NCBI GenBank assembly: GCA_021779135.1
Contig: JAJYBH010000021.1
Span: forward strand, 1-34,166
DNA length: 34,166 bases
Source of the DNA: Deltaproteobacteria bacterium
Lineage (GTDB): Bacteria; Desulfobacterota; Desulfuromonadia; Geobacterales; Pseudopelobacteraceae
Reading direction: 5' to 3'
The notes under the pieces: model-generated
What the model saw: only the letters and a program-made list of their open reading frames with translations
Database searches by the model: none
Told to the model about the DNA's origin: nothing
Position numbers and translations under genes: made by a program
Shown here: positions 12,263 through 33,136 of the stretch, in pieces
How positions within the stretch are numbered: position 1 is the first letter of the stretch
Layout: the number at the start of each line of letters is the position of its first letter

Positions 12263-12279
12263 TCAAAAAGGGGGATGCC

Positions 12280-17030: not shown

Positions 17031-17087
17031 GAGAGAACCGGAGCTGGTTTTCAGGATTTGACGCACCACTACAGGGAGGACAGCCAA

Positions 17088-17384: not shown

Positions 17385-18274
17385 TGCCCAGTTTTCGATC
17401 ACCGAAGGCACAATCTGTTCACGCCGTCTCGCAAAAGGTCGCCCTCGGAAAAGCGCGTCACGATCACCGGGATGACGGCAAGATCCACAGTGTCGGTACG
17501 GCCCGGGGCTATGGGAATTCACTCAACGGTAGCGCCAGGTATATGCGGGACAACCGGCTGGGAGATCTCCGCAGCATGACCCGAGATATTGCCATGCAAT
17601 ATCTCACCTACCGGGCCGCGATAGTTTCCCAGAAAACCCTGGACCTTGACCGCCAGGCGCTCCAGATGCACTTGGGGATAAAGCTCGATGTCATCAAGAG
17701 CGAGAAGGAAACCCACCTCTCCACCCGCAGCTATACTCAGGCGCAGATCGAGCACATTTCTTCCGCCCAGTCGGAGCGAAACAGCCTGGCAACACGGATT
17801 GCCTATTGCGCCGGTTTGCGGGCACATGAACTGCTGACTATCAGGCCGGTCAGCGAACAGAAGGCTTCGACACACCGGGAGTGGAGTGCAGACCGCTTCA
17901 CTGGCAGGGAGGGTGAGCGCTACACGGTGGAGGGGAAAGGCGGATTGATCCGAGAGGTCCTGCTGTCGAAGGAGTTGGCAGCACAGCTGGAGGCAACCCG
18001 TCTTGTCGAACCGCGACCGGTAGTTGATCGGGGAGTGAACTACACCCAGCACTACGACATCGGAGGCGGACGGGCTTGGAGTCAGACCTTTTCGGCTGCC
18101 AGTCAGCGGGAACTTGGTTTTTCCACCGGGGCTCATGGCCTGCGCCACAGCTATGCCCAGGAGCGGATGGGGGAATTGCAGAGATACGGTATGAATTACG
18201 ATGATGCAAAAGGAACAGTTGCCCAGGAGGTCGGGCATTTTGCATCGGATACTACGGAGGCATATTTAAGATGA
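17384..18274 (+). CDS. Second tyrosine-recombinase/integrase-like protein
   Basis: 296 residues, with a SAM-like N-terminal core-binding region (RYMRDNRLGDLRSMTRDIAMQYL). The catalytic domain shows the first Arg in AGLRAHELLTI, the H-x-x-R box in TGAHGLRHSYAQER, and a C-terminal GHFASDTTEAYLR with the nucleophile Tyr two residues from the end. All key residues of the family can be placed, although the segment between (about 190-240) is unusual. This is a different branch from the tRNA-Glu integrase and could resolve dimers or move a sub-element. Its stop overlaps the next gene start by four bases. Confidence 0.85.
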   Translation: MPSFRSPKAQSVHAVSQKVALGKARHDHRDDGKIHSVGTARGYGNSLNGSARYMRDNRLGDLRSMTRDIAMQYLTYRAAIVSQKTLDLDRQALQMHLGIKLDVIKSEKETHLSTRSYTQAQIEHISSAQSERNSLATRIAYCAGLRAHELLTIRPVSEQKASTHREWSADRFTGREGERYTVEGKGGLIREVLLSKELAAQLEATRLVEPRPVVDRGVNYTQHYDIGGGRAWSQTFSAASQRELGFSTGAHGLRHSYAQERMGELQRYGMNYDDAKGTVAQEVGHFASDTTEAYLR

Positions 18275-18864
18275 AAATACTGAGGATCGTATTGTATGCG
18301 TCAATAGCAATCACATTTTGCTGGTTGACGTGGTGGGTGCTGCCAAGTATCGCATTTGTCTACTTGGAAGAAAAGGGGAAGCCATTGCCAAATTCCGGAC
18401 TGGTCATGGTTGGCTATGATCAATCGAAGATTACCGGGCATCGGGTTGTTGTAAGTATAGACTCCGGATGGTCTGCATTATGGGCAGGCTGGCCCTGCAT
18501 CCTCGTCGGCGCTCTTGCCGGTCTGGGAGGCGGCTATGTGCTTGGTGATGGGGCACGACGGGTTTTTGCAGTTGATACGGCCTCCAAAGAGGCCATCGAA
18601 ACCGCGAAAGAGTATGAAACGAGCGCCACCCTGAAATTGGCATACTGTAAATCTCAGGAACAAAAACTGAAAGACGGGTTTGCGAAACTTGCAGCAGAAA
18701 ATGATGCTCTTGTCAGGCAGCGCGTAGAAATGCGTAGAGAAAAAGATCTGTTTGAAAAAAAGGTTAAGAATTCCGATTCAAATGAATTGAACAAGGCCAA
18801 AACGGCAATCCAGAGGCTGGAAAATAAAATTGATAAATTAAAAGAAAAATCAGTTGACGACTGA
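18271..18864 (+). CDS. Membrane protein with C-terminal coiled coil (unknown function)
   Basis: A 197-residue protein, not recognised. It has an N-terminal hydrophobic helix (about residues 5-30), then a soluble loop, then a second hydrophobic, glycine-rich helix (about 72-95, LWAGWPCILVGALAGLGGGY). A long charged helix follows (about 100-197) rich in K, E and A that looks like a coiled coil (EQKLKDGFAKLAAENDALVR and IQRLENKIDKLKEK). Two membrane spans with a coiled-coil cytoplasmic tail. It overlaps the recombinase stop by four bases, so it is expressed with it. The AT-rich 3' half differs from the GC-richer recombinase. Confidence 0.8.
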   Translation: MKILRIVLYASIAITFCWLTWWVLPSIAFVYLEEKGKPLPNSGLVMVGYDQSKITGHRVVVSIDSGWSALWAGWPCILVGALAGLGGGYVLGDGARRVFAVDTASKEAIETAKEYETSATLKLAYCKSQEQKLKDGFAKLAAENDALVRQRVEMRREKDLFEKKVKNSDSNELNKAKTAIQRLENKIDKLKEKSVDD

Positions 18865-18889
18865 CAGAACTGGGGATAATTCTATCTAC

Positions 18890-19183
18890 TATATACAATG
18901 CACCGTGGCGTTATGTCTCTCTTGAGACACACGGAGGCCAGCAGAGCCGACCTTATGGGTAAATCTGCAGGTTCTATCCAGACCGGTACATAGTGCAAAA
19001 GGATAGCAGCGGTGAACAGTCCCACGCTGAACAATAAGGGGGCGAATCGGGAAGGTGACTTCTCGCGGTGGCATAAGGCCATCGGCCTCGGCAGCAATAG
19101 CTGACCGTATGGCAATCTAACGCGACGCAAATCCAGAAAACACAGCAGATCTTGAAATGGGGCTCCTTACCGGGAGCCTTTTT
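18890..19183 (+). ncRNA. Candidate structured noncoding RNA (unproven)
   Basis: A gene-free stretch after the membrane protein. A possible promoter is TTGACG (18854-18859) and GATAAT (18875-18880), with a short 15-base spacer. There are small hairpins, e.g. TGTCTC (18914-18919) with GAGACA (18924-18929), and GAAG/CTTC around 19050. It ends in a clean terminator at 19161-19183. No credible open frame runs through it. It may be a regulatory RNA, a fragment of a structured ribozyme such as a group II intron, or only decayed sequence. Confidence 0.22.
19161..19183 (+). terminator. Rho-independent terminator
   Basis: GGCTCC (19161-19166), loop TTACCG, GGAGCC (19173-19178), then TTTTT. A short but GC-rich perfect stem. 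There is no annotated gene immediately upstream, which suggests a noncoding transcript ends here. Confidence 0.65.
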
Positions 19184-19527: not shown

Positions 19528-20742
19528 ATGCCCAACTCAATCAGTCAGATGACCCCACTGCTTCCGGAACGGGCCGATGATCTTCAGGATCTGGCCTTGG
19601 AGGTAGTTCAGCGCTCGGCCTCTCTCGGTACCAGGCAGCACCCTATCACCCTGCATACCCTGCGTGAACTACTCAGGATCATCAACAGCTATTACTCCAA
19701 CCTGATTGAGGGGCACAACACCCACCCCTACGATATCGTCAGAGCCATGCAGGAGCAGTACGACACCGAACCGGCCAAGCGCAACCTGCAACTGGAAAGC
19801 GTGGCCCATATCTCAGTACAGCGGCAGATGGAAGTATTATTGCAAGGAGAAGCGCCGCCCAATATCGCCGGGCAGGAGTTTCTCTGTTCGCTGCATCGGG
19901 AGTTTTTCAAGCTGTTGCCGGAAGAATTTCAGGTCATGACCAATCCGGATACCGGCCGGGAAAGCCGGGTAGTGCCGGGTGAATTGCGCACACAACCGGT
20001 CAAGGTCGGACAGCATCAACCGCCAGGGCATGACAGCCTGGGCACATTCATGATACGGTTCGGCGAATCGTATGCTCCCGAAAGGCATCATGGCGCTGCC
20101 AAGCTGGTGGCGGCGGCAGCGGCCCATCACCGGCTGATGTGGATACATCCGTTCCTGGACGGCAACGGCAGGGTTGCCCGCCTGTTCACCGAGGCCTACC
20201 TGCACCGGATTCCTGTCCATGGCTTTGGCCTCTGGTCAGTTAGCCGCGGCCTTGCCCGGAGGAATGCCGATTATAAAGCGGCACTGACCTGGGCCGATGC
20301 ACCACGCAGAAATGACCTGGACGGCAGGGGCAACCTGTCAAATGAGGGACTGGTAAAATTCTGTCGGTTCTTCCTTGAGATCTGCCTCGATCAGGTGGAG
20401 TACATGAACACCCTGTTGCAACTGGACGGGCTGGTGGAGCGGGTCAGAAGCTATGTGCAGTTGCGCGGCACCGCCATGATCCCCAATCCGCCCGGCATGG
20501 ACAATCTCCGCCCGGAAGCTGGCAGAATGCTGCAAGAGATCCTGCTACGGGGCGAAGCGCCACGGGGATCGGTCATCGAGGAATCCGGCCTGAAAGAGCG
20601 GACCGGTCGCAACTTGCTGGCTCAACTGGTGGCCGAGGGGCTGCTGGTTTCCGACACTCCCAAGGGTGAAGTGCGGATTGGCTTTCCGATTCATGCTGCC
20701 GGCTGGTTTTTCCCTGAGCTGTATCCGGTGCTGTCGCGGTAG
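19528..20742 (+). CDS. Fic-domain (AMPylation-type) protein with winged-helix C-terminus
   Basis: 404 residues. A complete Fic active-site loop HPFLDGNGRVARLF is present (about residues 208-221); the catalytic histidine starts the motif. Near the N-terminus YYSNLIEGHNTHP contains SNLIEG, which fits the autoinhibitory motif [S/T]xxxE[G/N], so the protein is probably self-inhibited (class II-like). The C-terminal 100 residues look like a winged helix (ILLRGEAPRGSVIEESGLKE then LVAEGLLVSDTPKGEV), suggesting DNA binding or autoregulation. In characterised relatives Fic proteins attach AMP to target proteins. AAGGA lies before the ATG at 19528. Target unknown. Confidence 0.88.
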   Translation: MPNSISQMTPLLPERADDLQDLALEVVQRSASLGTRQHPITLHTLRELLRIINSYYSNLIEGHNTHPYDIVRAMQEQYDTEPAKRNLQLESVAHISVQRQMEVLLQGEAPPNIAGQEFLCSLHREFFKLLPEEFQVMTNPDTGRESRVVPGELRTQPVKVGQHQPPGHDSLGTFMIRFGESYAPERHHGAAKLVAAAAAHHRLMWIHPFLDGNGRVARLFTEAYLHRIPVHGFGLWSVSRGLARRNADYKAALTWADAPRRNDLDGRGNLSNEGLVKFCRFFLEICLDQVEYMNTLLQLDGLVERVRSYVQLRGTAMIPNPPGMDNLRPEAGRMLQEILLRGEAPRGSVIEESGLKERTGRNLLAQLVAEGLLVSDTPKGEVRIGFPIHAAGWFFPELYPVLSR

Positions 20743-20837: not shown

Positions 20838-21674
20838 ATGAACATCACACCGGTAAACTTCGAGGATTACGACATCCGCAGGGTTTACGACGAGAAGACC
20901 GAAACCTGGTTTTTCTCTGTTGTGGACATCATCCGGGCCTTATTGCAGCAGCCGGACTTTCAGTCCTCCAGAAAGTACTGGAACAAGCTGAAAGAGCGGT
21001 TAAACAAAGAAGGAAGTGAGTCGGTGACAAATTGTCACCGACTGAAGCTGGAAGCGGCTGACGGGAAGAAATACCTGACCGACGTCGCCAGTCCCGAAGT
21101 ACTGCTTCGTCTGATTCAGTCTGTTCCCAGCCCCAAGGCTGAGCCGATCAAACTCTGGCTGGCCAAAATCGGTTATGAGCGGATGCAGGATATGGCTGAC
21201 CCGTCCCGCTCGCTTGACCGCGCCAGGGAATACTGGCAGCAGCACGGCAGAAGCGAAAAATGGATTCAGCAGCGGATGACCGGACAGGAGACCCGCAACA
21301 AGCTGACCGACTACTGGAAAGAGCACGAGATCAGGAAAGAATCGGAATTTGCCATCCTGACCGACATCATTCACCGGGAATGGGCGGGGCTCAAGGTACA
21401 GGAGCACAAGTCGCTCAAAGGGCTTAAGAGTCAGAACCTGCGCGACCACATGAGCGAGGCGGAGCTGATCTTTACCGCTCTGGCGGAGCTTTCTACCCGC
21501 CAGATTGCCGAGACCATGAATGCTACCGGCATGGAAGAGAATAAGGTTGCAGGGAAAAAGGGTGGCGGTATCGCCCGCAAGGCCCGCCGGGATCTTGAGG
21601 AGAAGACCGGCAGAAGTGTTGTCACCGGAGAGAATTTTTTGCCGCCGGGAAAGAGAACGCTGATCGATGAGTAA
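20838..21674 (+). CDS. Bro-N domain protein (phage-antirepressor-like)
   Basis: 278 residues. The N-terminal 100 residues are a Bro-N domain: IRRVYDEKTETWFFSVVDII, then WNKLKERLNKEGSE and KKYLTDVASPEVLLRLIQSV, the DNA-binding module of phage antirepressors. The middle and end belong to the family that continues PIKLWLAKIGYERMQDM, AREYWQQHGRSEKWI, RKESEFAILTDIIHREW and MSEAELIFTALAELSTRQIA, and closes with NKVAGKKGGGIARKARRDLE. Its cellular role is not established. ACGGAG precedes the ATG. It sits between Fic and the Vsr-methyltransferase run and ends six bases before vsr, so it may be cotranscribed with the defence genes. Confidence 0.87.
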   Translation: MNITPVNFEDYDIRRVYDEKTETWFFSVVDIIRALLQQPDFQSSRKYWNKLKERLNKEGSESVTNCHRLKLEAADGKKYLTDVASPEVLLRLIQSVPSPKAEPIKLWLAKIGYERMQDMADPSRSLDRAREYWQQHGRSEKWIQQRMTGQETRNKLTDYWKEHEIRKESEFAILTDIIHREWAGLKVQEHKSLKGLKSQNLRDHMSEAELIFTALAELSTRQIAETMNATGMEENKVAGKKGGGIARKARRDLEEKTGRSVVTGENFLPPGKRTLIDE

Positions 21675-21680: not shown

Positions 21681-22181
21681 ATGACAGATAGTCTCGCCCC
21701 GGAAAGGCGCTCCTGGAACATGAGCCGGATTCGTGGTAAGGATACGAAACCGGAAATTGCCGTAAGGAAAGCACTTCATGCGGCAGGGTACCGTTTCAGA
21801 CTCCATGTGAAAGAACTGCCTGGAAAGCCGGATATAGTTTTGCCGAAATGGAAGACGGTTGTATTTGTTCACGGATGTTTCTGGCATAGTCATGACGGGT
21901 GTAAGGATGCAACAATCCCCAAAACCAAAACAGAATGGTGGGTCGAAAAATTAGCGAAAAATAAAATACGAGACACCTTAAACTGTGAGGCACTCGTACG
22001 AGCTGGCTGGCACATCTTGATAGTTTGGGAATGTTCATTCAAGCAGTCTTCAGAATTTTCAGATATAGAGCGATTCAAAGAGATAGCTTCCGGCTTTATT
22101 GTAAATGGTTCAGATGTATTCGAAATTTCATACCATAACATGACTTCAAGTAACGTTTTGTGTAATAAAAAAGCGAGATGA
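21681..22181 (+). CDS. vsr: Very-short-patch repair endonuclease Vsr
   Basis: 166 residues. Vsr nicks T:G mismatches that arise when 5-methylcytosine deaminates, so it usually accompanies an m5C methyltransferase. The family opening RSWNMSRIRGKDTKPEIAVR is present, with KALHAAGYRFRLHVKELPGKP and the active-site strand PDIVLPKWKTVVFVHGCFWHSH. The zinc-type Cys/His cluster CFWHSHDGC and the following TEWWVEKLAKN and HILIVWECSF are also typical. The stop overlaps the methyltransferase start (ATGA). Intact. Confidence 0.95.
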   Translation: MTDSLAPERRSWNMSRIRGKDTKPEIAVRKALHAAGYRFRLHVKELPGKPDIVLPKWKTVVFVHGCFWHSHDGCKDATIPKTKTEWWVEKLAKNKIRDTLNCEALVRAGWHILIVWECSFKQSSEFSDIERFKEIASGFIVNGSDVFEISYHNMTSSNVLCNKKAR

Positions 22182-23785
22182 AAGAAGCTATGACTACAAA
22201 AAATATGAAGAATCCCATTCCAATAAAAAAAACAATCTCAAAGAAAGGCGGACTGATTAACCGTGATGTCAGTAATAATTCGCTCGAGAATATATCTGAA
22301 ATCCAGGTCGTTCAAGAAACCGACAATGAAGCCAAATTGACAGCTAAACTTATCAAAAAGAAACTTGCGGCGGCGCGGAGTCGGGGGGAGTTCAGAACTG
22401 TCGATTTATTCGCCGGATGTGGTGGCCTCAGCCTCGGTTTCGACCGCGCAGGTTTCCGGTCAATATGCGCAGTTGAGTTAAATGATGATGCACGAAAATC
22501 TCACGAACTTAACTTTGGCAGCGGCCCTTTAGCTGAAACCTACAGATCCTTTGCAGATATCAAAAGTACCGAACCAGAAGATGCCGTTGCACATATCAGA
22601 AATTCTGTGAATTCAACTGAGTTAGCTGCTGATATAGTAATTGGCGGGCCACCATGTCAAGCGTTCTCCAGACTTGGCCGTGCTGCACTTTGGAGCCTGG
22701 CGGGTGAAAAATTTGCTCATGAACATGATGAACGGGCAACCATGTATCACTATTTTCTGCACTACGTTGCCACGTTGAAACCCCTGGCTTTTGTGATGGA
22801 AAATGTACGCGAAATCGGCAAACACGTTGGGAAAAATATTGCTGAAGAAATTGCTGTGACAGCAGAGGCATTGGGCTATACGACCAACTACACTCTTCTA
22901 AATGCAGTATGGTTTGGTGTGCCACAGCTGCGCGAGAGGATGTTTATTATTGGTATTCACAAGTCGCTTAAAAAGCAGCCTGTTTTCCCATCAATACAGT
23001 TTGGATATGATCTGCCAGTTGGATATTCGACTTCACGAGCAGGTGAAGGTTCACCTGAGGTTTGCTTACCTTGTGATCACTATGTTGACCACTGCGAAAA
23101 AACAACAAACCCGCTTCAAGCGACCTCTGTTTCAACAGCTTTTGCCGACCTGCCACCAATACTTCATCATCTTGACGGGCGCAGGGGGAAGGGACATCCA
23201 AGAAGTGTTTCAAATCTAGTTGAATACGAGAAAAAAAGTAATTGGTTTACCAAAGAAATGAGAACATGGCCTCGCTTTGAAAATAAATCAAAACTTTTTA
23301 CCGGTCATATTATTCGTTACACACCAAGGGACTACGAAATTTTCAGAAGAATGCCACATGACGGAATGTATCCGGAGGCATTAATAGTTGCAGAAGAGAT
23401 ATTTCAGGAACGGTTACAATCGTACGAACTGGAATCTGGAAAAACAATAAAACCGGGTAGTGAAGAGTGGGAATCCATAAGAAAAGCAGTTGTACCACCC
23501 TATAAGGACGGAAGGTACCCCAACAAGTTCAGAAAGATGTCGCCTGAACATCCTTCAAGGACTCTTCCTGCACACATAGGAAAAGACTCCTACTCACACA
23601 TTCACTTTGATAGTGACCAAGCACGAGGTATATCGCTACGTGAAGCGGCAAGAATTCAATCGTTTCCGGATGCATTCAATTTGGCAGGCAGTATGAATTC
23701 ACAATTAAAGCAAATTGGGAATGCGGTACCTCCCTTGCTTGCCTATGCCGTTGCACAAGAAGTCAGGAGAGCTCTAATAGACTGA
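22178..23785 (+). CDS. DNA (cytosine-5) methyltransferase 1
   Basis: Large m5C methyltransferase, 535 residues. A 70-residue charged N-terminal leader precedes the catalytic domain. Motif I is DLFAGCGGLSLGFDRAGF (about 75), motif IV with the catalytic Cys is GGPPCQAFSR (about 158), motif VI ENVREIG (about 207), motif VIII QLRERMFIIG (about 250), and motif X QIGNAVPPLLAYA (about 511). Residues about 255-480 form the long target-recognition region. Base composition is clearly AT-richer than the McrC-like gene. The start overlaps the vsr stop; a second ATG at 22190 is also possible. It should protect one strand of an asymmetric site if the system is LlaJI-like. Confidence 0.95.
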   Translation: MKEAMTTKNMKNPIPIKKTISKKGGLINRDVSNNSLENISEIQVVQETDNEAKLTAKLIKKKLAAARSRGEFRTVDLFAGCGGLSLGFDRAGFRSICAVELNDDARKSHELNFGSGPLAETYRSFADIKSTEPEDAVAHIRNSVNSTELAADIVIGGPPCQAFSRLGRAALWSLAGEKFAHEHDERATMYHYFLHYVATLKPLAFVMENVREIGKHVGKNIAEEIAVTAEALGYTTNYTLLNAVWFGVPQLRERMFIIGIHKSLKKQPVFPSIQFGYDLPVGYSTSRAGEGSPEVCLPCDHYVDHCEKTTNPLQATSVSTAFADLPPILHHLDGRRGKGHPRSVSNLVEYEKKSNWFTKEMRTWPRFENKSKLFTGHIIRYTPRDYEIFRRMPHDGMYPEALIVAEEIFQERLQSYELESGKTIKPGSEEWESIRKAVVPPYKDGRYPNKFRKMSPEHPSRTLPAHIGKDSYSHIHFDSDQARGISLREAARIQSFPDAFNLAGSMNSQLKQIGNAVPPLLAYAVAQEVRRALID

Positions 23786-23836
23786 CAAAATGAGTTTAGA
23801 AGATCATTTCAACACGAGAAGGTCGGGATAATCAAA

Positions 23837-25693
23837 ATGGCTAAAACTGGAACCAATGCAGATTTTCGTCGTAGAACGCTAACATTAGCGACACCTTTAC
23901 AGAGCTCCGGCATCCGTGAGTGTTACGGGACCTCCAATTCTGCAAAGTTTGTAACAGGCGGTTTTCTTTGTGGCATTCCGAACCTTGACAATCTTGATGA
24001 ATCGGTTGGAGCTCTTTGTGTGTTCTCTCGAATTCAACTTGGCCCGGAATCTGAATTGCACACAGCTATCCTTATTCGACAGGATCTCAATACGCTGCTG
24101 GTGCGATTAAATGCAATGATTTCAAACCCAGTTGGCGAATCATTCGGCATCAGGAATCAAAACTGCGCAATTTTCCTTGCTACTGACGGTAAACTTTATC
24201 CACATAATAAAGCTAAAGATACATTTGCCCTTACAGATGAAGTACTTGCCCAACTTGGCCCAGGAGTGGTTCCAGACGCATTATTCTGGTCCATTTACGG
24301 TAATGAGACCGAAGCAACTCGGGGGGCTATTTCTCAGTTAGAAAAGCTAATTGGGCGCGAAAAACTTTCTAAGATTGAAAACTTGAATACGCTACTGCCT
24401 CTACCGTATCCGAACGCTTCGTTTGCTTTTAACAATTCAATTATAGAAGCAATTTTGCAATCTTTGGATGACGCAGCTCTTATTGTTGATGCAAATCTAC
24501 TGAAACGATTTACTGCGTCACTGATAAGCAAGCGCTTTCTTGTCCTTACAGGTCTTGCCGGTTCCGGTAAAACGAAGATCGCCCAGGCTTTCGCCCGCTG
24601 GATCACTCCCGATACGGGCTGGATCGATGATGCCGACCATTCGCAGGGTAAGAACCCCAACCCCTTTTACGCTCTTGTTCCGGTCGGTGCCGATTGGACC
24701 GGCAATGAGAACATCATCGGCTACCCGAACGGCCTGGAAGCTGGAGTTTACATAACCAAGCCCCCTCTTGAACTGATCCGCCACGCTCTTGACCCGGCAA
24801 ATGCTGCTATCCCGCACTTCCTGATCCTGGACGAAATGAACCTCTCCCATGTGGAGCGCTATTTTGCCGACATGCTTTCGGCGATAGAATCCGGCGAGAA
24901 AATACCGCTGTACGAGGGGACGGAGCGTATGGCTGACGGCGGGGCGGTGCCGCGCAAGCTGCGTCTGCCGGACAACCTGTTCATCATCGGCACGGTAAAC
25001 GTGGACGAGACGACCTACATGTTTTCTCCAAAGGTGCTGGACCGCGCCAATGTCATCGAATTCAGGATGGAGCCTGCCGAGCTGGCAGCGTTTCTCGGCT
25101 CGCCCAAGGCCCCCAGACTTGAGGAGCTGGACGGCAAAGGAACCGGTTTCGGCAGCGGATTTGTAGAGGCTGCCGGCGACAAGGGGCGGGAAGTCCCTGC
25201 TGTTGTTAAAGCGGACTTTGAAGGCGAGATGTTGCTGCTCTTCAACCTGCTGCGCGAGCATAACGCCGAATTCGGCTATCGCACCAGCTACGAGACTGCA
25301 CGTTTTATTCATTTTTACAATCAGCTTGGCGGTTATGCAGACGATAACGGCGACTGGTTCGACGGCGCCATGGATGCGGTCGTTGTCCAGAAGATTCTTC
25401 CCAAGCTGCATGGCTCACGGTCAAAGCTGGAAGGTCTGTTGTGGGCGCTGGCCTGGGCCTGCGGGGCGGAGCGCATTGACCGGGACGGCAGAAATTTTAC
25501 CGCACAGCTTCGTGAGGCAAGCCAGGCGCAGGATGAGGCGAAGTACGGGCCGGAGCTGCTCTGGTCAACGCTTGCGGCAATCAATGCCGATGATCCGGCT
25601 GCTGCGGCACGCTATCCGTTGAGCTTTGACAAGGTGATGCGGATGTGGCGGAAGCTGGTGCGCGATCAGTTTGTAACCTTCTCCGAGGCATAG
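23837..25693 (+). CDS. McrB-like AAA+ ATPase (restriction motor, R1-type subunit)
   Basis: 618 residues. The N-terminal 220 residues are AT-rich and have no motif I recognise; in McrB-type proteins this part recognises the DNA target. The AAA+ domain of McrB type follows: Walker A LTGLAGSGKTK (about 237-247), Walker B FLILDEMNLSHVERYFAD (about 328), and the sensor region FIIGTVNVDETTYMFSPKVLDRAN (about 385, shown here only in part: GTVNVDETTYMFSPK and LDRAN). The Walker B Asp-Glu and the NVDET signature fit McrB/LlaJI.R1. The ATPase is expected to use NTP hydrolysis to drive the nuclease. The GC content jumps near 24,540, in the middle of the gene. Followed after one base by the McrC-like gene. 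Confidence 0.9.
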   Translation: MAKTGTNADFRRRTLTLATPLQSSGIRECYGTSNSAKFVTGGFLCGIPNLDNLDESVGALCVFSRIQLGPESELHTAILIRQDLNTLLVRLNAMISNPVGESFGIRNQNCAIFLATDGKLYPHNKAKDTFALTDEVLAQLGPGVVPDALFWSIYGNETEATRGAISQLEKLIGREKLSKIENLNTLLPLPYPNASFAFNNSIIEAILQSLDDAALIVDANLLKRFTASLISKRFLVLTGLAGSGKTKIAQAFARWITPDTGWIDDADHSQGKNPNPFYALVPVGADWTGNENIIGYPNGLEAGVYITKPPLELIRHALDPANAAIPHFLILDEMNLSHVERYFADMLSAIESGEKIPLYEGTERMADGGAVPRKLRLPDNLFIIGTVNVDETTYMFSPKVLDRANVIEFRMEPAELAAFLGSPKAPRLEELDGKGTGFGSGFVEAAGDKGREVPAVVKADFEGEMLLLFNLLREHNAEFGYRTSYETARFIHFYNQLGGYADDNGDWFDGAMDAVVVQKILPKLHGSRSKLEGLLWALAWACGAERIDRDGRNFTAQLREASQAQDEAKYGPELLWSTLAAINADDPAAAARYPLSFDKVMRMWRKLVRDQFVTFSEA

Positions 25694-25694
25694 C

Positions 25695-28196
25695 GTGGCT
25701 GCTGAAGCGCGACAGCGTGAATGGGTCGAGTGCAGGACCCCGGAGGGGCGTCTGCTGGCAACAGTCGAAATTGTGACACTTGCCAAGACAGAACCTTCGT
25801 CTGTCGCGCAGAAATCGCTGGTGATGTTTTCTGCCGAGGAGGCGGGACGGAATAGTGAGGAACGCCTGCAGCTGCGGGAACGCGGTCGCTACGAATACCG
25901 CCTGAAACCTGCTGAAGGGGCATGGGACGACCTGGCGCTGCTGCCGCATCGCGGAGTTCAGCCGAGCCCTGTTCTGGAAGAACGGGGAGACCGGGGTTTG
26001 ATCGAACCGCAGGATTACTGCGGTTTGCTGCCATTGACGGTCATCCGCCGCAATGATCCGGCCTTGAGGCCGGTGGCACGCGGCAGTGTTGAAGTCCGTT
26101 CCGTCAAACTCGGCTACCGGGAACATTACCGGGGAATGCTGTCATTCATTTCAGACAGGTGCGCCGGTCTGCTCATGGACTGCCGCGCCCCCACCCGCCT
26201 GAAACTCGATACTCTCTGGCAGAAAGACTCCCGCATCCTGGAGCAGCAGCTCGAATTTCTGCGGCATACCCTGGAATCATCTCCATTCCGCGCCGCTGTG
26301 GATGAGATCCTGCGCAATCCCCATCGGCGACTTGAGGACAACCGCGAAGAGCGGGACATCTCACGACCTTTCAAGCCGGGCAGGGATTTTGCGCGGCAGG
26401 TTGCCACGGCGGCACGCCGCGTTTCAGTGCCCGAATCCCATCCTCTTTATTCCACCAACATCCGCTCCCTCCCAGCCCGGGTCTCCGTTCAGTCGCACAC
26501 CGACTTTCTTGATACGGCAGAGAACCGCTTTATCAAAATGGTGCTGGCCGAGTTCCGCGACTTTCTCGCCGATGTGGTATCACACCTTTCACGCAAACCT
26601 GCAGACCTTGAAAAACCGGAAACACGCCGGCTTCTTGGTGATGCGAACCGGCTACGCGGTATGCTGGAAACGCAGCTTGGGCGCAGCTTTCTCCCGGATG
26701 TCTCGGCGCCGGTTGTCGTGCCGATTGGCAGCCCTGTATTGCAGCGCAAGGCCGGCTATAGGGAGTTGCTGCATTTCTGGCTGCAGTTTCATGCCGGGGC
26801 TCAGCTGGTATGGGAAGGCTCTGCGGATGTGTTCCATGCCGGTGCCCGTAACGTGGCGACCCTGTACGAATACTGGCTGTTCTTTCAGCTTGAAAAACTT
26901 TTCCGGCAAAGGTTTGCCTGCGAACAGCCGCTTCATTCGATAATTGTGAATAAGGACAAAGCGCCCCCGCAATTGATGCTCAAACGCGGCGTGGAGTTGA
27001 GGACGCCGGTTGCCGGCGTATGGTCCAACAAGGCGAGCCGCCGGCTGAAAGCGGAGTTCCACTTTAACCGCAAGTTTTCGCCACGATCTGAACAGGGCAA
27101 AGCCGGCAGCTGGACGCGCGGTGTGCAGCCGGATTACACCATCAGCATTTGGCCGGCTGAGTACTCAAGAGAAGAAGCAGAGCGGAACGAGCTGATGGCT
27201 CATGTCCACTTTGATGCGAAATACCGTATCGACAACATTCGCGAACTGCTCGGCGACTTAACGGACGATGAGGCATTCGAAAGAGATACGGAAGCCGCAC
27301 AGGAAAACCGCACGGCGGCAAAGTATTCCGATCTGCTGAAAATGCATGCGTATCGTGATGCCGTAAGGCGTACCGCTGGAGCATACGTCCTATATCCCGG
27401 CAACCCGGGCGATAACATATCCCCTTACAACTGCTTTCATGAAATTTTGCCGGGACTCGGAGCATTTGCCATCCGTCCGAATGCGGAAGGCGAGGCGGGG
27501 GGGATTGATTCAGTTGCCAAATTTCTCGACGATATCATCGAGCATCTCGCTAACCGCACCACAGCGCGGGAGCGTGTCACCTACCACCTTGCAGAAGCCT
27601 ATACAGCGAATGAGCAGCCGGTGAATTACGGGTCGATGGCCCTGTCAGAATCGGATATTTACGGTCGGGATTACCGCGCTCTGCCGCCTGCAGAAGAGAT
27701 GGTGCTGATCGCATGGTACGAAAACGCCGCCCAGCTTGCGCTTGCCCGTGATGAGAACGGATTCGTCTATGTGCGTCTTGGAAGGCGTCAAGGAGCACTG
27801 CATGTTCACCCCAACCTGGCTGGTGTACGGCGTATTGTCATGAGGACTCATGGCGGTGACGTGGCATCCGGGATGTTAAGCCTGCGCGAAAGCGGTTTCC
27901 GGATTTTCACGCGCTCACAGCTCCGGGTCGAATTGAAACAGCATGCCAAGGGACAGGGAGTTGCAGCCTGGGAAGCATTCGCCGGGCATGATGATGAAGA
28001 GCACATATATGCACTGTTCAAAACGGCCAGTGATCCTGCTTCAGAGTCTCAAGGCTGGCGGGGCGAGATGCTGATGGACGAGATTGAATGTTTTGAATCG
28101 GACGTGAGAAACAAACCGGTTGTAAATGTCGGCAGAACGTCGCCCTATCCGCGCATTTTGACACTTCGCGATGTGTTGAGGGCGAGAATTTATTGA
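25695..28196 (+). CDS. DUF2357/McrC-like PD-(D/E)XK nuclease subunit
   Basis: 833 residues, starting GTG at 25695 with GAGG upstream (the McrB-like stop is two bases away). The N-terminal half resembles DUF2357: HRGVQPSPVLEERGDRG, then LEFLRHTLESSPFRAAVDEI and VSVPESHPLYSTNIRSLPAR. A C-terminal PD-(D/E)XK nuclease core can be placed as QPDYTISIWP (about 478) and HVHFDAKYRI (about 505), giving D...DxK. The pair McrB-like plus DUF2357 is the R1/R2 pair of LlaJI and McrBC-like systems; this subunit is the expected endonuclease. High and even GC content unlike the methyltransferase 1 gene. Confidence 0.88.
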   Translation: MAAEARQREWVECRTPEGRLLATVEIVTLAKTEPSSVAQKSLVMFSAEEAGRNSEERLQLRERGRYEYRLKPAEGAWDDLALLPHRGVQPSPVLEERGDRGLIEPQDYCGLLPLTVIRRNDPALRPVARGSVEVRSVKLGYREHYRGMLSFISDRCAGLLMDCRAPTRLKLDTLWQKDSRILEQQLEFLRHTLESSPFRAAVDEILRNPHRRLEDNREERDISRPFKPGRDFARQVATAARRVSVPESHPLYSTNIRSLPARVSVQSHTDFLDTAENRFIKMVLAEFRDFLADVVSHLSRKPADLEKPETRRLLGDANRLRGMLETQLGRSFLPDVSAPVVVPIGSPVLQRKAGYRELLHFWLQFHAGAQLVWEGSADVFHAGARNVATLYEYWLFFQLEKLFRQRFACEQPLHSIIVNKDKAPPQLMLKRGVELRTPVAGVWSNKASRRLKAEFHFNRKFSPRSEQGKAGSWTRGVQPDYTISIWPAEYSREEAERNELMAHVHFDAKYRIDNIRELLGDLTDDEAFERDTEAAQENRTAAKYSDLLKMHAYRDAVRRTAGAYVLYPGNPGDNISPYNCFHEILPGLGAFAIRPNAEGEAGGIDSVAKFLDDIIEHLANRTTARERVTYHLAEAYTANEQPVNYGSMALSESDIYGRDYRALPPAEEMVLIAWYENAAQLALARDENGFVYVRLGRRQGALHVHPNLAGVRRIVMRTHGGDVASGMLSLRESGFRIFTRSQLRVELKQHAKGQGVAAWEAFAGHDDEEHIYALFKTASDPASESQGWRGEMLMDEIECFESDVRNKPVVNVGRTSPYPRILTLRDVLRARIY

Positions 28197-28235
28197 AATC
28201 ACCAGCCACAAAATGTACAGACGGCGACCATTTTC

Positions 28236-28267
28236 TTGACACAGCTCTATTATCTTGAAACTATAAA
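28236..28267 (+). promoter_or_regulatory. Weak promoter-like sequence before methyltransferase 2
   Basis: TTGACA (28236-28241) and TATAAA (28262-28267) have perfect boxes but a 20-base spacer, longer than the optimum. The 98-base gap is the only sizeable one in the last 8 kb, so a separate promoter is possible. Confidence 0.25.
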
Positions 28268-28294
28268 TTATTTTACCATTGGAACATCACTGAA

Positions 28295-29368
28295 ATGATT
28301 GGAATCGATTTGTTCTCAGGAGCAGGAGGAATGTCTCTCGGCGCCCAGCTTGCGGGTGTCAACGTGGAGTATTGCGTCGAGAATGATCCTCATGCTTTGG
28401 CAACATATATTTGCAATCATAGAGGGTCAAAAATATTTTCCGAAGATATCAGAAAATTGAAGGCCGAATGTTTAGGAGATGTTCTGAACTGCCGCAATGA
28501 GCCGCTGGTTGTATTCGGCGGCCCTCCATGCCAAGGGTTTTCTACTTCGAATCAGCGCACCAGATCGTCCGAAAATCCGAGCAATTGGCTTTTCGAAGAA
28601 TTTATCCGGGTTGTGAGAATGTGCAATCCGGACTGGGTTGTTTTTGAAAATGTTAAGGGAATTCTTGAAACTGAAGGCGGTAAGTTTTTCGAGTACACAT
28701 ACAACAAACTGCGGCGACTAGGCTACACTCTTTCGCATGAAGTTCTAAATGCCGCCGACTACGGAGTCCCTCAGGCAAGAGCGCGATTATTTATCATCGG
28801 AAATCGGCATGGAGTGAAGTTCAGTTTTCCAAAACCGGCGATGAAAAAGCATGTGACCGTATTCGATGCGATTGCAGACCTTCCCAGCCTCCCAAACGGT
28901 GCCGATATTGACTGGCACGATTACGCGAGCGAACCGAGGTCGGTATACGCCCGTAAAATGCGCGGCAGACTCAAGAAATCACCGAACCACATTGTCACGA
29001 AAAATGCGGACCATATTATTGAACGGTATAAGCATATCCCTCAAGGCGGTAATTGGGAAAATATCCCTAAGGAACTGATGCAGAACTACTCGGACGTCAC
29101 GCGATGCCATACTGGGATATATATGCGCCTTAAGGCGGATGAAACCTCTGTCGTAATCGGAAACTATCGAAAAAATATGCTGATACATCCCTGGGAAGAT
29201 CGCGGGCTTTCAGTTCGCGAAGCTGCCAGATTGCAATCCTTCCCGGATCATTACGAATTTAAGGGATCAATCGGATTCCAGCAGCAGCAGGTCGGCAATG
29301 CAGTGCCGCCTATTTTAGCAAAAGCAGTCTTTTGTTCGTTGCAAGCGCTTCAAAGCGATATGCCGTGA
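28295..29368 (+). CDS. DNA (cytosine-5) methyltransferase 2
   Basis: 357 residues, compact m5C methyltransferase. Motif I is DLFSGAGGMSLGAQLAG (near residue 5), the catalytic Cys in GGPPCQGFSTSN (about 77), motif VI FENVKGIL (about 117), motif VIII QARARLFIIGN (about 159), and motif X QVGNAVPPILAKAV (about 331). The target region between has RCHTGIYMRLKADETSVVIG. It is not a duplicate of methyltransferase 1, as the lengths and motifs differ. Two unlike m5C enzymes are needed when the recognition site is asymmetric, one per strand. Ends 12 bases before the next gene. Confidence 0.95.
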   Translation: MIGIDLFSGAGGMSLGAQLAGVNVEYCVENDPHALATYICNHRGSKIFSEDIRKLKAECLGDVLNCRNEPLVVFGGPPCQGFSTSNQRTRSSENPSNWLFEEFIRVVRMCNPDWVVFENVKGILETEGGKFFEYTYNKLRRLGYTLSHEVLNAADYGVPQARARLFIIGNRHGVKFSFPKPAMKKHVTVFDAIADLPSLPNGADIDWHDYASEPRSVYARKMRGRLKKSPNHIVTKNADHIIERYKHIPQGGNWENIPKELMQNYSDVTRCHTGIYMRLKADETSVVIGNYRKNMLIHPWEDRGLSVREAARLQSFPDHYEFKGSIGFQQQQVGNAVPPILAKAVFCSLQALQSDMP

Positions 29369-29380
29369 TCAAGGAGCATT

Positions 29381-30478
29381 ATGTCCTATATCTGGGAAAC
29401 ACTTGAAATTGAAGAAATAATCCTTGCGGCATTAATCCGTGATTTAGACAGAAGCCATGGCGACGACCGTTTTGGCTGCTATACGACTGTGCGGAAAAAC
29501 CTGCTGGAAAATGTGCTCGAAGAGATCAAAAAGATTCAGCCTGATATGACAGATCATGGTCCGAAACATATTAGAAATGTTCTTGAAAATATTCAGGACC
29601 TTCTTGGAGACAGCACAGGTAATTGGGACAGAGCAATTAAAAAACTTGAGCAAGGAGCCCTGAATGGCATGGAGCTGTATATTCTCGGACTTTCTGCTTT
29701 GTTCCATGATGTTGGGAATGTCTTTAAGAGAGAGGAACATCAAAAACAGATTGGCCCAATATATGATTATGTAAGACCGACGGTTGGCGGGAACCAAGAT
29801 TCAGAAGAAAAATCCATAATATTGGATATCTGTAAAGCCCATTGCGGAGACGGATTGGACGGAAGTAAAAATACCCTTGGCTTTGTAACCGACAGGTCAA
29901 AGCTGGCTCGGCAGGAAATCAGACCGAAGCTGCTCGCACCAATATTACGTTTTGCAGATGAACTTGCCGAAGGGGAGCAGAGAACATCTCACTACTTAAT
30001 CCAACGTCATAGTTATCCAGAAGGAAGCCTTAAATTCCATCAATATGCACTTTCAAGTAACGTAGATATAGATAGGGCTCATGGCAGAATCAGATTGAAA
30101 TATCATATTACACTGAGGTTGCCTCACGAATCTGAGACGGAAAGATTTCAACACCATGGGCCGCTTGTTTCTACAGACGATCTTGCAGGATTCTTGATGA
30201 TTGTTTATCACAGAATTGAGAAAGTGAATCAGGAAAGACAATATGCGAAATTTTATTGTCCGCTTCTGGAGCCTTTCAAGGAAACCTCTGCAACCTTTAA
30301 TTTTTGGTATAAAGGGCGTGAAATTCCTGTCGATCTACCTTCTGTGATCTTTTCAGACCTGGTTGTACCGGGAGATCCGCAAAAAACAGTAGTTGAACGT
30401 GACAATCAATATAATCCTGTTGATTTAATCGTCAGGCTTACAGAAGCTATGAATCGTATAGCCTCGCAGGAGGAATGA
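29381..30478 (+). CDS. HD-domain (phosphohydrolase-like) protein of the ThyX cassette
   Basis: 365 residues, with AAGGAG before the ATG. HD metal-binding residues can be placed in order: DHGPKHIRNVLENI (first His, about residue 56), LFHDVGNVF (His-Asp, about 107), AHCGDG (about 150) and ILRFADELAEG (final Asp, about 190). This is the H...HD...D pattern of HD phosphohydrolases, which cleave nucleotides or cyclic nucleotides. The C-terminal 170 residues are unassigned, with PLLEPFKETSATFNF and VVPGDPQKTVVER. Substrate unknown; a (d)NTP or a cyclic dinucleotide are possibilities. It begins the run of four genes with gaps of 8 bases or overlaps, 12 bases after methyltransferase 2. Confidence 0.85.
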   Translation: MSYIWETLEIEEIILAALIRDLDRSHGDDRFGCYTTVRKNLLENVLEEIKKIQPDMTDHGPKHIRNVLENIQDLLGDSTGNWDRAIKKLEQGALNGMELYILGLSALFHDVGNVFKREEHQKQIGPIYDYVRPTVGGNQDSEEKSIILDICKAHCGDGLDGSKNTLGFVTDRSKLARQEIRPKLLAPILRFADELAEGEQRTSHYLIQRHSYPEGSLKFHQYALSSNVDIDRAHGRIRLKYHITLRLPHESETERFQHHGPLVSTDDLAGFLMIVYHRIEKVNQERQYAKFYCPLLEPFKETSATFNFWYKGREIPVDLPSVIFSDLVVPGDPQKTVVERDNQYNPVDLIVRLTEAMNRIASQEE

Positions 30479-30486
30479 GGTGAGTC

Positions 30487-32223
30487 ATGCCTAATTACAA
30501 AAATCCGTTTGAGTATGAGCAGGCTACGAAACTTTCAACAGAAGATGTCCTCAAATATTATATTGAAGACTTTAATTATTCACGTTTTGTTTCCTCAAAA
30601 AGAAATATTTTCCTTGTCGGAGAGCGGGGAACTGGAAAGACCATGACTTTCCTGTATTACTCGCTACCCATTCAGGTTCAGAGAGTCTTAAAACATGAAA
30701 CAGAACTTGATCTGAGTCTAGTTTCAGTCTACATCCCCTGCAACACGCCACTCACGCACAGAAGAGAATATGAGCTTCTTGACCCATTGAACGCTTCATT
30801 GGCAAGCGAGCATTTTATGGTCGTTTCAATAATGAAAGAGGTGCTGGATTCGATATACAGTGTACCAGGAATCATTTCAAAAGACGAAGAGGAGATGCTG
30901 CGTTCAGAACTCGAGTATGCTTTACACCTTACCCTCCCAAGCAATATACCTTTTAAACGGGCACTCGATCTTGCCCTCGACAAAGCAAGCGTATCAGTTC
31001 AGGAGTCGCTGAATAGCGATGAAGACGACATAAAAAAATTATTTATGTCTTTCAATAGCGGCTTAAAACTTTTTCTGGTGTGCTTAAGACAAACAGAAAA
31101 GCTCAGAAACAGCCACTTCTCATTTTTAATTGACGATGCTCAGCTTTTCAATCCATATCAAAAAAGAGCCCTCAACTCTTGGATTGCCTACCGTGACAAC
31201 GCTCTTTTCAGTTTCAAAGTAGCAACTACGCGTGTTGAAGCACCATCATTCGAGACTTCATCGGGAGGCAGCATACTGGAAGGGCACGATTTCACGTGGA
31301 TAGAAATGGAGCAGCCTTATCAGAACAGGACTTCAGCATTTGGCAAGTTTGCACGGAGTATTGTGAACTCAAGGTTAGCTGCTATCGGTGTAACCAAAAT
31401 ACCGGAAGAGTTTTTTCCTGAAAACCCGGCATTCACCAAGGATATCGAAGAGGCAAAACGTAAGGCGCAAGAAGAAGCAGTAATAAAATACCCAGATGGG
31501 ACGCCCAAGCAAATAGCGGATTATATCTATAAATACACAAGGGCAATCTACTTCCAAGAACGTTCCCCGCGTGCAAATCTTCCGCCTTATTCAGGTTTTG
31601 ATCTTCTCACACATTTATCAACCGGTGTAATCAGAAATCTGCTGAACCCATGCTACCATATGTATGATCGAATGTTGTCTGAGATACAAAAAAAGCCTGA
31701 AAACGAAGCGATTCCGATTGACGAGATTCCTCCCAATATCCAGACAGAGGTTATTTTACAGCTGAGTAAGGAAAAATGGGAGTGGATTGCAAATAAATTG
31801 GACAACAGTATTGAAGGGTGCTCACGCGAAGTCGCAAAACGCGTTTATCAGCTCATGGACAACTTAGCGATTCTTTTCAAAAAAAGACTGAGGTCAAAAA
31901 TATCTGAGCCCCGAGCCGTTGAGTTTACAATTTCTGGATTTGACGAAAAGTCATATGCAGATCTCAGTGAAGTGCTGCTAGTTGCACAGAAGGCCCAGCT
32001 TATCTACACATATTGGAGTTCGGCTAAGGATAGTGGCAAGCGTGAACCCTACTATATGCCAAACAAGATGTTATGGCCCGAGCGTGGGCTAGATCCTCAT
32101 GGCCAGCATGCTCGTGTCTCCATTACTGCTCACAATTTACTGAATGCAGCGGTCAACAATATCGAGATACCATTCTCAGGAGATGACCAGGATGAACCCA
32201 CTCTGTTCACTACAGCAGTCTAA
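30487..32223 (+). CDS. ORC/Cdc6-like P-loop ATPase of the ThyX cassette
   Basis: 578 residues, 8 bases after the HD gene with GAGG upstream. The opening YKNPFEYEQATKLSTEDVLK with the following FNYSRFVSSKRNIFLVG fits the ORC-CDC6-like family named in protein databases. Walker A is GERGTGKT (residues 45-52), a probable Walker B is SFLIDDAQLF (about 216). A sensor-like KVATTRVEA follows, and the C-terminal half has helical and winged-helix-like segments (EKWEWIANKLDNSIEGC). Such ATPases act as switches or motors; here probably the energy-coupling part of the cassette. The next gene starts 32 bases before its stop. Confidence 0.85.
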   Translation: MPNYKNPFEYEQATKLSTEDVLKYYIEDFNYSRFVSSKRNIFLVGERGTGKTMTFLYYSLPIQVQRVLKHETELDLSLVSVYIPCNTPLTHRREYELLDPLNASLASEHFMVVSIMKEVLDSIYSVPGIISKDEEEMLRSELEYALHLTLPSNIPFKRALDLALDKASVSVQESLNSDEDDIKKLFMSFNSGLKLFLVCLRQTEKLRNSHFSFLIDDAQLFNPYQKRALNSWIAYRDNALFSFKVATTRVEAPSFETSSGGSILEGHDFTWIEMEQPYQNRTSAFGKFARSIVNSRLAAIGVTKIPEEFFPENPAFTKDIEEAKRKAQEEAVIKYPDGTPKQIADYIYKYTRAIYFQERSPRANLPPYSGFDLLTHLSTGVIRNLLNPCYHMYDRMLSEIQKKPENEAIPIDEIPPNIQTEVILQLSKEKWEWIANKLDNSIEGCSREVAKRVYQLMDNLAILFKKRLRSKISEPRAVEFTISGFDEKSYADLSEVLLVAQKAQLIYTYWSSAKDSGKREPYYMPNKMLWPERGLDPHGQHARVSITAHNLLNAAVNNIEIPFSGDDQDEPTLFTTAV

Positions 32224-33136
32224 AATACTTATTACCGTTGCTAGCTGGGAAGATCGGTTCCTGCTGGGAATTGTTCAGCTGATCGAAAAAGTTTCTCCTG
32301 CAAAAATATTGATGTTTCACTATAAAGAGTATGCTGATTGGTCAAAAGAAAATCGGGACAAAATTGCTGCTATCTGTGCCGAAAAAAATATAGATCTAGT
32401 AAATGACAAAGAACTTGCTTTCGGTTCACCTTTAGAATCATGGGTAAATTTAACCAGGGTAGTTGACAGCGTGATCAATCCAGGCGAATTGATCACGCTG
32501 GATATTTCTACAATGCCGCGGGAAACTATTTGGAGTATCTGTCATGTGTTAGCAAAACGCAACATATCCATTCAGTATACTTATCACAAACCTCAAAGTA
32601 GCAATGGCTATGCAGAATGGCTGAGCCGAGACCCAGGTAAACCTCGAATCCTCTATAAGCAAGCAGGTATCCAGCATTTAGGCAGGCCGACGCTGCTCGT
32701 CATTCAGACCGGATACGATGTTGAAAGAGCAAAACAATTGGAAAGATTCTTTGAGCCTGACAAAGTTCTTCTAGGTCTGCAAACCGGTGAGCAATTTGCT
32801 AACTCTGAACAAAACAGACAAAAGCATGAGAACGCATTTTCGAGCAGAAAAGATATCGAGTTATTCGATATCGATGGATATTCTCTGGAAGGAGTGTATG
32901 GCGCTATTGCAGATAAAATTTCCCCGTGTCTAGATGATTACAACATAGTGCTTTCGAGCTTAGGGCCAAAGATAGGGGCTCTTGCTTTGTTCAAAATAAA
33001 ACAAGCATTTTCGAATGTAGCATTATGCTACGCTCCGTCAAATGAATTTAACCGGGAATACTCCAAAGGCATAGGCGACTGCATTCATGGGGTTATAGAG
33101 GCTCAAGCGCCACTTGAACAGGAGATGACAACTTGA
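32192..33136 (+). CDS. Rossmann/CARF-like protein of the ThyX cassette (unknown)
   Basis: 314 residues, not assigned with certainty. The start ATG at 32192 has AGGAG nine bases upstream, inside the end of the ATPase gene (overlap of 32 bases). It opens with a beta-alpha unit, SKILITVASWEDRFLLGIVQ, and a second strand KILMFHYKEYADW. Then LITLDISTMPRETIWSICHV occurs, a strand-turn-helix like those of CARF/SAVED-type Rossmann domains in nucleotide-sensing proteins. A second part repeats the pattern (TLLVIQTGYDVERAKQLERF). A sensor for a nucleotide or cyclic oligonucleotide is my inference. No nuclease motif is visible. The ThyX start overlaps its stop by four bases. Confidence 0.7.
   Translation: MNPLCSLQQSKILITVASWEDRFLLGIVQLIEKVSPAKILMFHYKEYADWSKENRDKIAAICAEKNIDLVNDKELAFGSPLESWVNLTRVVDSVINPGELITLDISTMPRETIWSICHVLAKRNISIQYTYHKPQSSNGYAEWLSRDPGKPRILYKQAGIQHLGRPTLLVIQTGYDVERAKQLERFFEPDKVLLGLQTGEQFANSEQNRQKHENAFSSRKDIELFDIDGYSLEGVYGAIADKISPCLDDYNIVLSSLGPKIGALALFKIKQAFSNVALCYAPSNEFNREYSKGIGDCIHGVIEAQAPLEQEMTT

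Follow-up and report, generated by a model that had tools for sequence, protein, structure and literature searches.

The window analysed here is the whole of contig JAJYBH010000021.1 (34,166 bases) from a deltaproteobacterium, and our subject is a run of restriction-modification and associated genes within it. A sequence-only reading had grouped five of these genes into a single LlaJI-type system with the order vsr-M1-R1-R2-M2. They code for Vsr, a first 5-methylcytosine (m5C) methylase (M1), a McrB-like AAA+ protein (R1), a protein with DUF2357 and PD-(D/E)XK nuclease domains (R2) and a second m5C methylase (M2). The five genes themselves are confirmed, with exact open reading frames (ORFs) and matching families, but the grouping has to be revised. 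We consider it likely (probability of roughly 0.8) that the region consists of two abutting systems: System A, made up of vsr, M1, R1 and R2 (21681-28196), and System B, a cassette composed of M2 and genes for HD-CE, ORC/CDC6-like, CARF and ThyX proteins (hereafter cassette B; 28295-34035 or beyond).

All the genes of both systems lie on a single strand with short gaps (Table 1). The same-strand run extends past M2, with the HD-CE gene 12 bp downstream, followed by the ORC-CDC6-like, CARF-like and ThyX genes nearly to the contig end. The HD-CE and ORC genes are separated by 8 bp, and the CARF6-type gene overlaps the ORC gene. As the window is the whole contig, cassette B may run beyond position 34166.

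Table 1. Features of Systems A and B in the window
Feature	Position	Strand	System	Matches and remarks
Vsr	21681..22181	+	A	PF03852 4.5e-31; TIGR00632 5.2e-42; overlaps M1 by 4 bp
M1, m5C methyltransferase, 535 aa	22178..23785	+	A	PF00145 2.9e-57
R1 N-terminal part, ~residues 1-231, probable specificity domain	23837..24530	+	A	no Pfam match; whole R1 ORF 23837..25693
R1 McrB-like AAA+ part	24530..25693	+	A	DNA similarity start, AAA+ motifs, McrB profile match
R2, DUF2357 + PD-(D/E)XK nuclease, 833 aa	25695..28196	+	A	GTG start; PF09823 2.6e-32 at 101-362; PF04411 (PDDEXK_7) 2e-23 at 389-570
M2, m5C methyltransferase, 357 aa	28295..29368	+	B	PF00145 1.4e-64
HD-CE phosphohydrolase-like protein, 365 aa	29381..30478	+	B	PF24391 1.5e-26
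ORC-CDC6-like AAA+ ATPase, 578 aa	30487..32223	+	B	PF24389 5.1e-91
CARF6-type protein, 330 aa	32144..33136	+	B	PADLOC CARF6 PDLC01917 6.4e-30; later ATG at 32192 also possible
ThyX, 300 aa	33133..34035	+	B (associate)	TTG start; PF02511 3e-52

Assignment of M2 to cassette B

Methylases of the M2 family (at least 46% identity) were collected from 15 distinct loci, designated by L numbers, and 13 of these also harbour HD-CE, ORC and CARF genes: the window, L134 (=L077), L135, L136, L137, L138, L140, L141, L122, L123, L125, L132 with L124 (one plasmid) and L154. L077 was not counted beside L134, nor was L139, which is identical to L138 over 13,053 bases. BLAST searches detected R1 or R2 in none of the other 14 loci within the flanks examined, which span 0.9 to 9.5 kb except at the Spirosoma cassette, split by the record start; the two are thus seen in the window only. 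This distribution speaks against vsr-M1-R1-R2-M2 as one system. What stands of the restriction grouping is the pair of McrB-like AAA+ and DUF2357/PD-(D/E)XK subunits beside an m5C methylase and Vsr, without M2. Since the first profiles had been trained on six of the tested loci, the test was repeated leaving each locus out. HD-CE and CARF were again detected in 13/13 loci each (weakest values, 1.8e-51 and 1.3e-33, respectively), which strengthens the assignment of M2 to cassette B.

The two remaining loci, L155 and L157, have an M2-type methylase without HD-CE, ORC or CARF. In L155 (51% identity to M2) it is found beside HATPase and AIPR genes, and in L157, a faecal phage record (52%), beside MzaB, MzaC, MzaD and AIPR genes. 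In a 40-row methylase tree, M2 falls into one clade (support 99/99) with the methylases of L155, L157 and the 12 other cassettes. None of the R1-R2 methylases joins this clade; several of them are long branches whose own placement is unsure.

The cassette occurs on plasmids as well as on contigs classed as viral. The viral contig L077 has the gene order of the window (identities of 61% for M2, 31% for HD-CE, 42% for ORC and 32% for CARF), and neither R1 nor R2 was found in its flanks. L135 also has this order, plus Vsr. The order in L138 (1465-8042) is unlike that of the window, as HD-CE, ORC and CARF genes precede a 668-aa frame with an M2-like C-terminal part and then ThyX. The full set is also present in Rhizobium, Yoonia, Spirosoma and Agrobacterium records reached through plasmid ORC matches, and the top four records of a plasmid search with M2 (47-57%) are exactly those four. 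The fifth (38.8%) lies beside a NotI-family enzyme; among the listed plasmid matches below 40%, two were opened. The M2 alignment, used to scan viral contigs, identified ten loci, of which eight have HD-CE, ORC and CARF by profile (L138 and L139 being identical) and two, below 40% M2 identity, have none of the three. The M2 reading frame is open in L141.

Genome surveys for M2 at E 1e-70 returned 1 of 398 genomes (L154, which carries cassette B), 1 of 345 (L155) and 1 of 297 (the genome of the window itself). HD-CE alone has matches in 57 of the 297 genomes of the phylum, 22 of them over the cut-off, and nine HD-CE regions that were opened showed no ORC or CARF by profile. No M2-family methylase of at least 46% identity was present in the ORC-match loci opened. 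One genome, G085 (L118), gave weak matches to ORC (1.5e-9) and CARF (7e-4) in neighbouring genes and none to M2 or HD-CE. When M1, ORC, the CARF protein or the R1 N-terminus served as query in viral scans, no relatives were retrieved, and the ORC search in phages gave no match. L120 (326-6740) has an arrangement related to cassette B, in which genes for an m5C methylase (33%), a 407-aa protein that Pfam does not recognize and a 1,222-aa protein containing an ORC-CDC6-like domain are accompanied by Vsr.

Based on these sequence comparisons, M2 appears to belong to a separate, conserved, rare and apparently unnamed cassette with HD-CE, ORC/CDC6 and CARF genes and often ThyX. No description of an m5C-HD-CE-ORC-CARF cassette was found in the open-licence literature searched; the CARF classification paper, the probable source of CARF6, may mention it.

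Proteins and possible role of cassette B

Residues H59, H63, H109, D110, H154 and D193 of HD-CE are invariant in 13/13 cassettes, and the Walker A and B residues of ORC (G45, G48, G50, K51; D216-D217) in 12/12, the split Spirosoma copy being left out. The structural model of the CARF protein, computed from 32192, has a predicted local distance difference test (pLDDT) score of 86.4. Its best solved Foldseek match is Cam1 (8t66, 3e-6), then Csm6, Csa3 and Can2, among several non-CARF folds, and the model thus supports a CARF fold for this protein. The HD-CE protein of L077 (2743-3771) has a weak PADLOC Cas10 match (4e-4), which may point to a relationship with the HD domain of Cas10.

ThyX is present in six of the 13 cassettes (window, L122, L125, L135, L138 and L140; convergent on the opposite strand in L122 and L125), and Vsr near four of the 12 other cassettes (L125, L135, L136 and L140); these counts apply to the flanks examined, and either gene could lie beyond them elsewhere. 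The window ThyX is 44-64% identical to those of the five other cassettes, and 26% identical over 126 residues to the other ThyX of its own genome (contig C73). Judged by sequence, it is a second, divergent thymidylate synthase of that genome.

By analogy with Mza and BREX, cassette B can be envisaged as a self-marking conflict system. M2 would mark host DNA with 5mC, and the ORC/CDC6-like ATPase would serve as a switch, detecting unmarked or replicating foreign DNA. The HD protein would be the effector, attacking DNA or nucleotide pools under the control of the CARF protein as ligand sensor, and ThyX would restore host deoxythymidine monophosphate (dTMP). We put forward such an undescribed immune system, often with a dedicated ThyX and sometimes Vsr, tentatively, as the whole mechanism is drawn by analogy. 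The association of a thymidylate synthase with a methylase cassette was unexpected and points to nucleotide metabolism in the mechanism.

It is somewhat less probable that cassette B serves a mobile element, for replication or nucleotide supply, with ORC/CDC6 acting as a replication factor and ThyX providing dTMP. The presence of cassette members on plasmids and viral contigs would fit this explanation, as would the recurrence of ThyX, and ORC/CDC6 proteins include replication initiators. Nevertheless, CARF6 is among the PADLOC models, and the M2 clade includes the methylases of L157, with its Mza genes, and of L155, with its HATPase and AIPR genes, links that are by association only.

A conflict role for cassette B invites comparison with two known types of systems. 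Mza is close in that M2-clade methylases adjoin MzaB, MzaC, MzaD and AIPR genes in L157 and HATPase and AIPR genes in L155, and that annotated Z1 genes adjoin the M1 relatives of L127 and L129. It differs in its components, namely HATPase, Z1 helicase, DUF4420 and AIPR rather than HD-CE, ORC and CARF. MzaB, MzaC, MzaD and AIPR are not among the neighbours in the window, and HD-CE, ORC and CARF have no PADLOC Mza match (the scan covered these three and M2, for which the best 25 of 62 matches were considered). BREX and BREX-related systems, like cassette B, combine a DNA methylase with an ATPase of the ORC/Cdc6 clade (PMC12839542). The methylase is an N6 enzyme in BREX and an m5C enzyme in cassette B, which adds HD-CE and CARF6. 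No PglZ, BrxA, BrxB or N6-methylase (PglX/BrxX) was recognized in cassette B (Pfam, PADLOC and NCBIfam for four proteins; Pfam for ThyX). Once M2 is taken out of System A, a conserved set of m5C methylase, HD, ORC/CDC6 and CARF genes comes into view.

Modular composition of R1 and R2

Relatives of R1-R2 were found via R2 at 35 loci, with R2 identities of up to 94%, and the R1 proteins of 20 of them were scanned with Pfam. The only Pfam match of the window R1 is AAA_22 (2.5e-4), below its cut-off, and its PADLOC match is PDC-M26A (2.2e-38). Its motifs and relatives identify it as McrB-like. Its Walker A, Walker B and NxD motifs are invariant in 22/22 aligned relatives, and the R1 profile matches the AAA chain of Escherichia coli McrB (6hz4, 3e-5). 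The match to 6ut6 is stronger (4.1e-18) but includes the N-domain of MrcB_N-bearing relatives. In R2, P479, D480, D507 and K509 are invariant in 19/19 aligned relatives. The DUF2357 and nuclease domains are surrounded by long N- and C-terminal extensions, and the DUF2357 match is the only one in the genome.

The similarity between the window R1 and its relatives begins well inside the protein. With complete R1 relatives, BLAST similarity starts at residues 142-225, mostly around 200, and the invariant columns of the 22 aligned R1s start at R224. At the DNA level, similarity to the R1-R2 genes of L005, L006, L007, L008 and L010 sets in at 24529-24537, with the P-loop glycine following seven codons later. 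It ends at 28183-28187, i.e. at the end of R2, in L005, L006, L007 and L008; the alignment with L010 is in two pieces and ends at 27601. L007 additionally shares 135 bp within vsr. An AAA+/R2 block of ~24530-28187 is thus shared with five loci with differing R1 N-termini. Base composition also changes within R1. Vsr, M1 and the R1 N-terminus have a GC content of 43-44%, the R1 AAA part and R2 one of 57%; for R1 itself, the values are 0.436 for residues 1-205 and 0.568 for the rest. A change-point in GC content at third codon positions (GC3) falls at codon 245 (twice the difference in log-likelihood, 2dlnL, 73.8). Each of the five relatives measured (L005, L007, L008, L010 and L014) likewise has a lower GC content in its R1 N-terminus than in its AAA part.

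The R1 N-terminus is associated with M1 instead. A phmmer search with it against 2,157 ORFs retrieved itself and the R1s of L128, L131 and L133 only (E 4e-16 to 1e-11), three loci with M1-type methylases whose R2 proteins barely match the window R2 (~21%, E 4e-4 to 4e-3). Plasmid records with the related N-terminal domain of L133 have an adjacent M1-like methylase in 5/5 cases, two of these being Rhizobium rhizogenes plasmids with equal scores; the window R1 N-terminus as plasmid query gave one record. Conversely, L005 has 94% identity in R2 and 90% in the AAA part of R1, yet a different N-terminus and methylase. L005 also shares upstream genes with the window (16878-18287 and 18784-19131, 74-77% DNA identity), so these are two related islands with the same motor-nuclease block and different specificity modules. 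Based on these comparisons, R1 is a chimera in which an M1-associated N-terminus has been joined to an AAA+/R2 block exchanged between loci. The R1 N-terminus and M1 are inferred to recognize one and the same site.

System A and its relatives

The Vsr gene lies inside the M1 cluster in 7/7 M1-family loci inspected, the window included. Six plasmid matches to M1 were opened. L128, L131 and L133 have M1 together with R1-like, DUF2357 and Vsr genes and one annotated DNA methylase each; judged by genomic association, System A therefore does not need M2. In L127 and L129, M1 is found with Vsr and Z1-type genes, and L130 has Vsr-M1. M1 is placed in its own clade of seven in the methylase tree (support 100/100).

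Judged by sequence, vsr, M1, R1 and R2 seem to form a McrBC-like restriction-modification system that is sufficient in itself and uses one m5C methylase. M1 would methylate cytosine at C5 in its site, which is predicted to be palindromic since one m5C methylase must cover both strands. The N-terminal part of R1 would bind this site when unmethylated, and R1 thus probably recognizes the site of M1 and leaves methylated DNA intact. Its AAA+ ring, driven by nucleoside triphosphate, would then engage R2, the PD-(D/E)XK centre of which would cut. The role of Vsr would be to repair T:G mismatches that arise by deamination of the 5mC made by M1.

Comparison with LlaJI, PcaRCI and larger arrangements

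The nearest described plan, compared by description only, is that of PcaRCI from Pectobacterium carotovorum RC5297. Its single methylase, which is Dcm-like, marks CCNGG; the other components are an AAA+ subunit and a DUF2357 subunit bearing large extensions, and the system restricts unmethylated DNA (PMC8989522). The window similarly has a single m5C methylase with AAA+ and DUF2357 genes in one cluster, and a DUF2357 subunit with long extensions. PcaRCI differs in that Vsr and patch repair are absent as terms from the main text of its paper (PMC8989522), and the CCNGG site is documented for PcaRCI only.

LlaJI, encoded by the Lactococcus plasmid pNP40, comprises two m5C methylases, R1 and a 48.8-kDa R2, recognizes the asymmetric site GACGC and restricts unmethylated DNA (PMC1459862); its R1 is said to bind via a B3 domain (PMC12707154). 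The window R1 similarly has a C-terminal McrB-like NTPase and a unique N-terminal half, and the two systems also share a PD-(D/E)XK R2, m5C methylation and, probably, the restriction of unmethylated DNA. They differ in that LlaJI has two cognate methylases, an asymmetric site and an R2 of the RE_LlaJI family, by the family's name, vs one cognate methylase, by association, and an 833-aa DUF2357/PDDEXK_7 R2 in the window. RE_LlaJI (PF09563) matched neither R2 nor anything else in the genome, and the control search was positive in Bacillus subtilis. The LlaJI membership proposed by the sequence-only reading was rejected for want of this match and because M2 goes to cassette B by genomic association.

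We accordingly regard a true LlaJI-type system, in which M1 and M2 would each methylate one strand of an asymmetric site cut by R1-R2 when unmethylated, as LlaJI itself works (PMC1459862), as highly improbable. Two unlike m5C methylases do flank R1-R2, and two Paenibacillus loci, L020 (5578-12217) and L038 (5569-13078), carry two tandem m5C methylases before R1-R2, L038 with Vsr after R2 as well. The LlaJI plan therefore exists within this DUF2357 family, which counts against our separation of the two methylases. Nevertheless, the M2 family keeps company with HD-CE, ORC and CARF, the set of M1, R1 N-terminus and Vsr goes with one annotated methylase on the three plasmids, RE_LlaJI is not matched, and the shared DNA block stops at the end of R2. 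The R1 N-terminus of L020 has a weak, sub-threshold RE_AlwI match. A Lactococcus record with two m5C methylases proved to carry a PLD-type enzyme.

No more probable is a single compound superoperon that would have the two methylases, R1-R2 and the HD-CE, ORC, CARF and ThyX genes act jointly, e.g. in staged defence. The single strand and short gaps are in keeping with it, and superoperons that combine CARF genes with McrBC relatives are described in PMC11090510. In contrast, cassette B is found without R1 or R2 in 12/12 other loci within the flanks examined and System A without cassette B in L128, L131 and L133, the two occurring together only in the window.

MrcB_N domains and the mode of restriction

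The sequence-only reading had named grouping with plain McrBC, which cuts methylated DNA, as a finding that would tell against it. This is half the case: among the 20 R1 relatives scanned, nine match MrcB_N, the methyl-binding N-terminal domain of McrB, at E 0.01 or better (L021 just under the Pfam cut-off) and 11 do not, and the window R1 has no MrcB_N match by Pfam. Of the 10 loci without MrcB_N, 8 have an m5C methylase no more than 2 kb away from R1-R2, vs 1 of the 9 loci that carry MrcB_N (Fisher p 0.0055; L006, the sequence of which ends 158 bp upstream of R1, left out), in a test that treats loci as independent though several Dyadobacter rows are related and in which the downstream flank is <2 kb in L018 and L027. 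L008 (2129-6530), from a Geobacter metagenome-assembled genome, illustrates the point, as its R1 AAA part and R2 are 82 and 74% identical to those of the window, but its N-terminus is MrcB_N, and no m5C methylase was found within 2.1 kb before and 5.5 kb after R1-R2. The pattern agrees with a proposal by O'Driscoll et al., in which enzymes of this kind either work by themselves on methylated DNA or, paired with methylases, target DNA that is unmethylated (PMC1459862). It suggests, at the level of sequence, that one motor-nuclease block serves both methyl-dependent (MrcB_N) and methyl-sensitive restriction.

System A shares with type IV McrBC its AAA+ motifs, a DUF2357-nuclease partner and the profile match to E. 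coli McrB, and relatives as close as L008 would favour a type IV nuclease that cuts methylated DNA next to methylases that are mere neighbours, but this is the least credible explanation and was rejected for the window R1, as R1 has no MrcB_N match by Pfam, its N-terminus matches only R1s beside M1-like methylases, methylase presence tracks MrcB_N absence, and such a nuclease would presumably be lethal to the host if it cut DNA methylated by the adjacent M1. Under the two-system arrangement, System A offers a view at DNA resolution of a McrBC-like block apparently re-targeted by joint exchange of the R1 N-terminus and the methylase, and the interconversion of methyl-dependent and methyl-sensitive modes becomes directly testable.

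Besides the Paenibacillus loci, several observations weigh against this arrangement or parts of it. A promoter and terminator scan of the region gave chance-level results, and with all genes on one strand a shared transcript for Systems A and B is possible. Some M2 loci have short flanks, with 1.7 kb to the left of M2 in L134 and 0.9 kb in L157, and L155 and L157 indicate that M2-type methylases change partners. Regarding System A, neither L127 nor L129 matched the R1 N-terminal domain, and M1 thus does not require it. The structure model of the R1 N-terminus has a pLDDT below 50, making the first 199 residues unusable, and a profile built from four R1 N-termini matched no meaningful solved structure; nor did the R2 profile match a solved McrC. 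As to the methylase pattern, L027 has MrcB_N plus Vsr and an M1-like methylase, L010 has neither MrcB_N nor an m5C methylase in the flanks examined, and the only methylase-like feature of L014 is an ORF with an SPPF motif.

Genomic environment

Upstream of System A, the window has tRNA-Lys and tRNA-Glu genes followed by a tyrosine integrase gene (11736-13545), a region that is probably the left end of an integrative island. A Toprim/DUF3631 protein is encoded next (14095-16431), and then a Fic-domain protein (19528-20742; PF02661 2.6e-14). The latter gene precedes that of a Bro-N protein (20838-21674; PADLOC candidate PDC-S13, 4.4e-117), which ends 6 bp before vsr and has a 46% identical relative in L084 (15121-15909).

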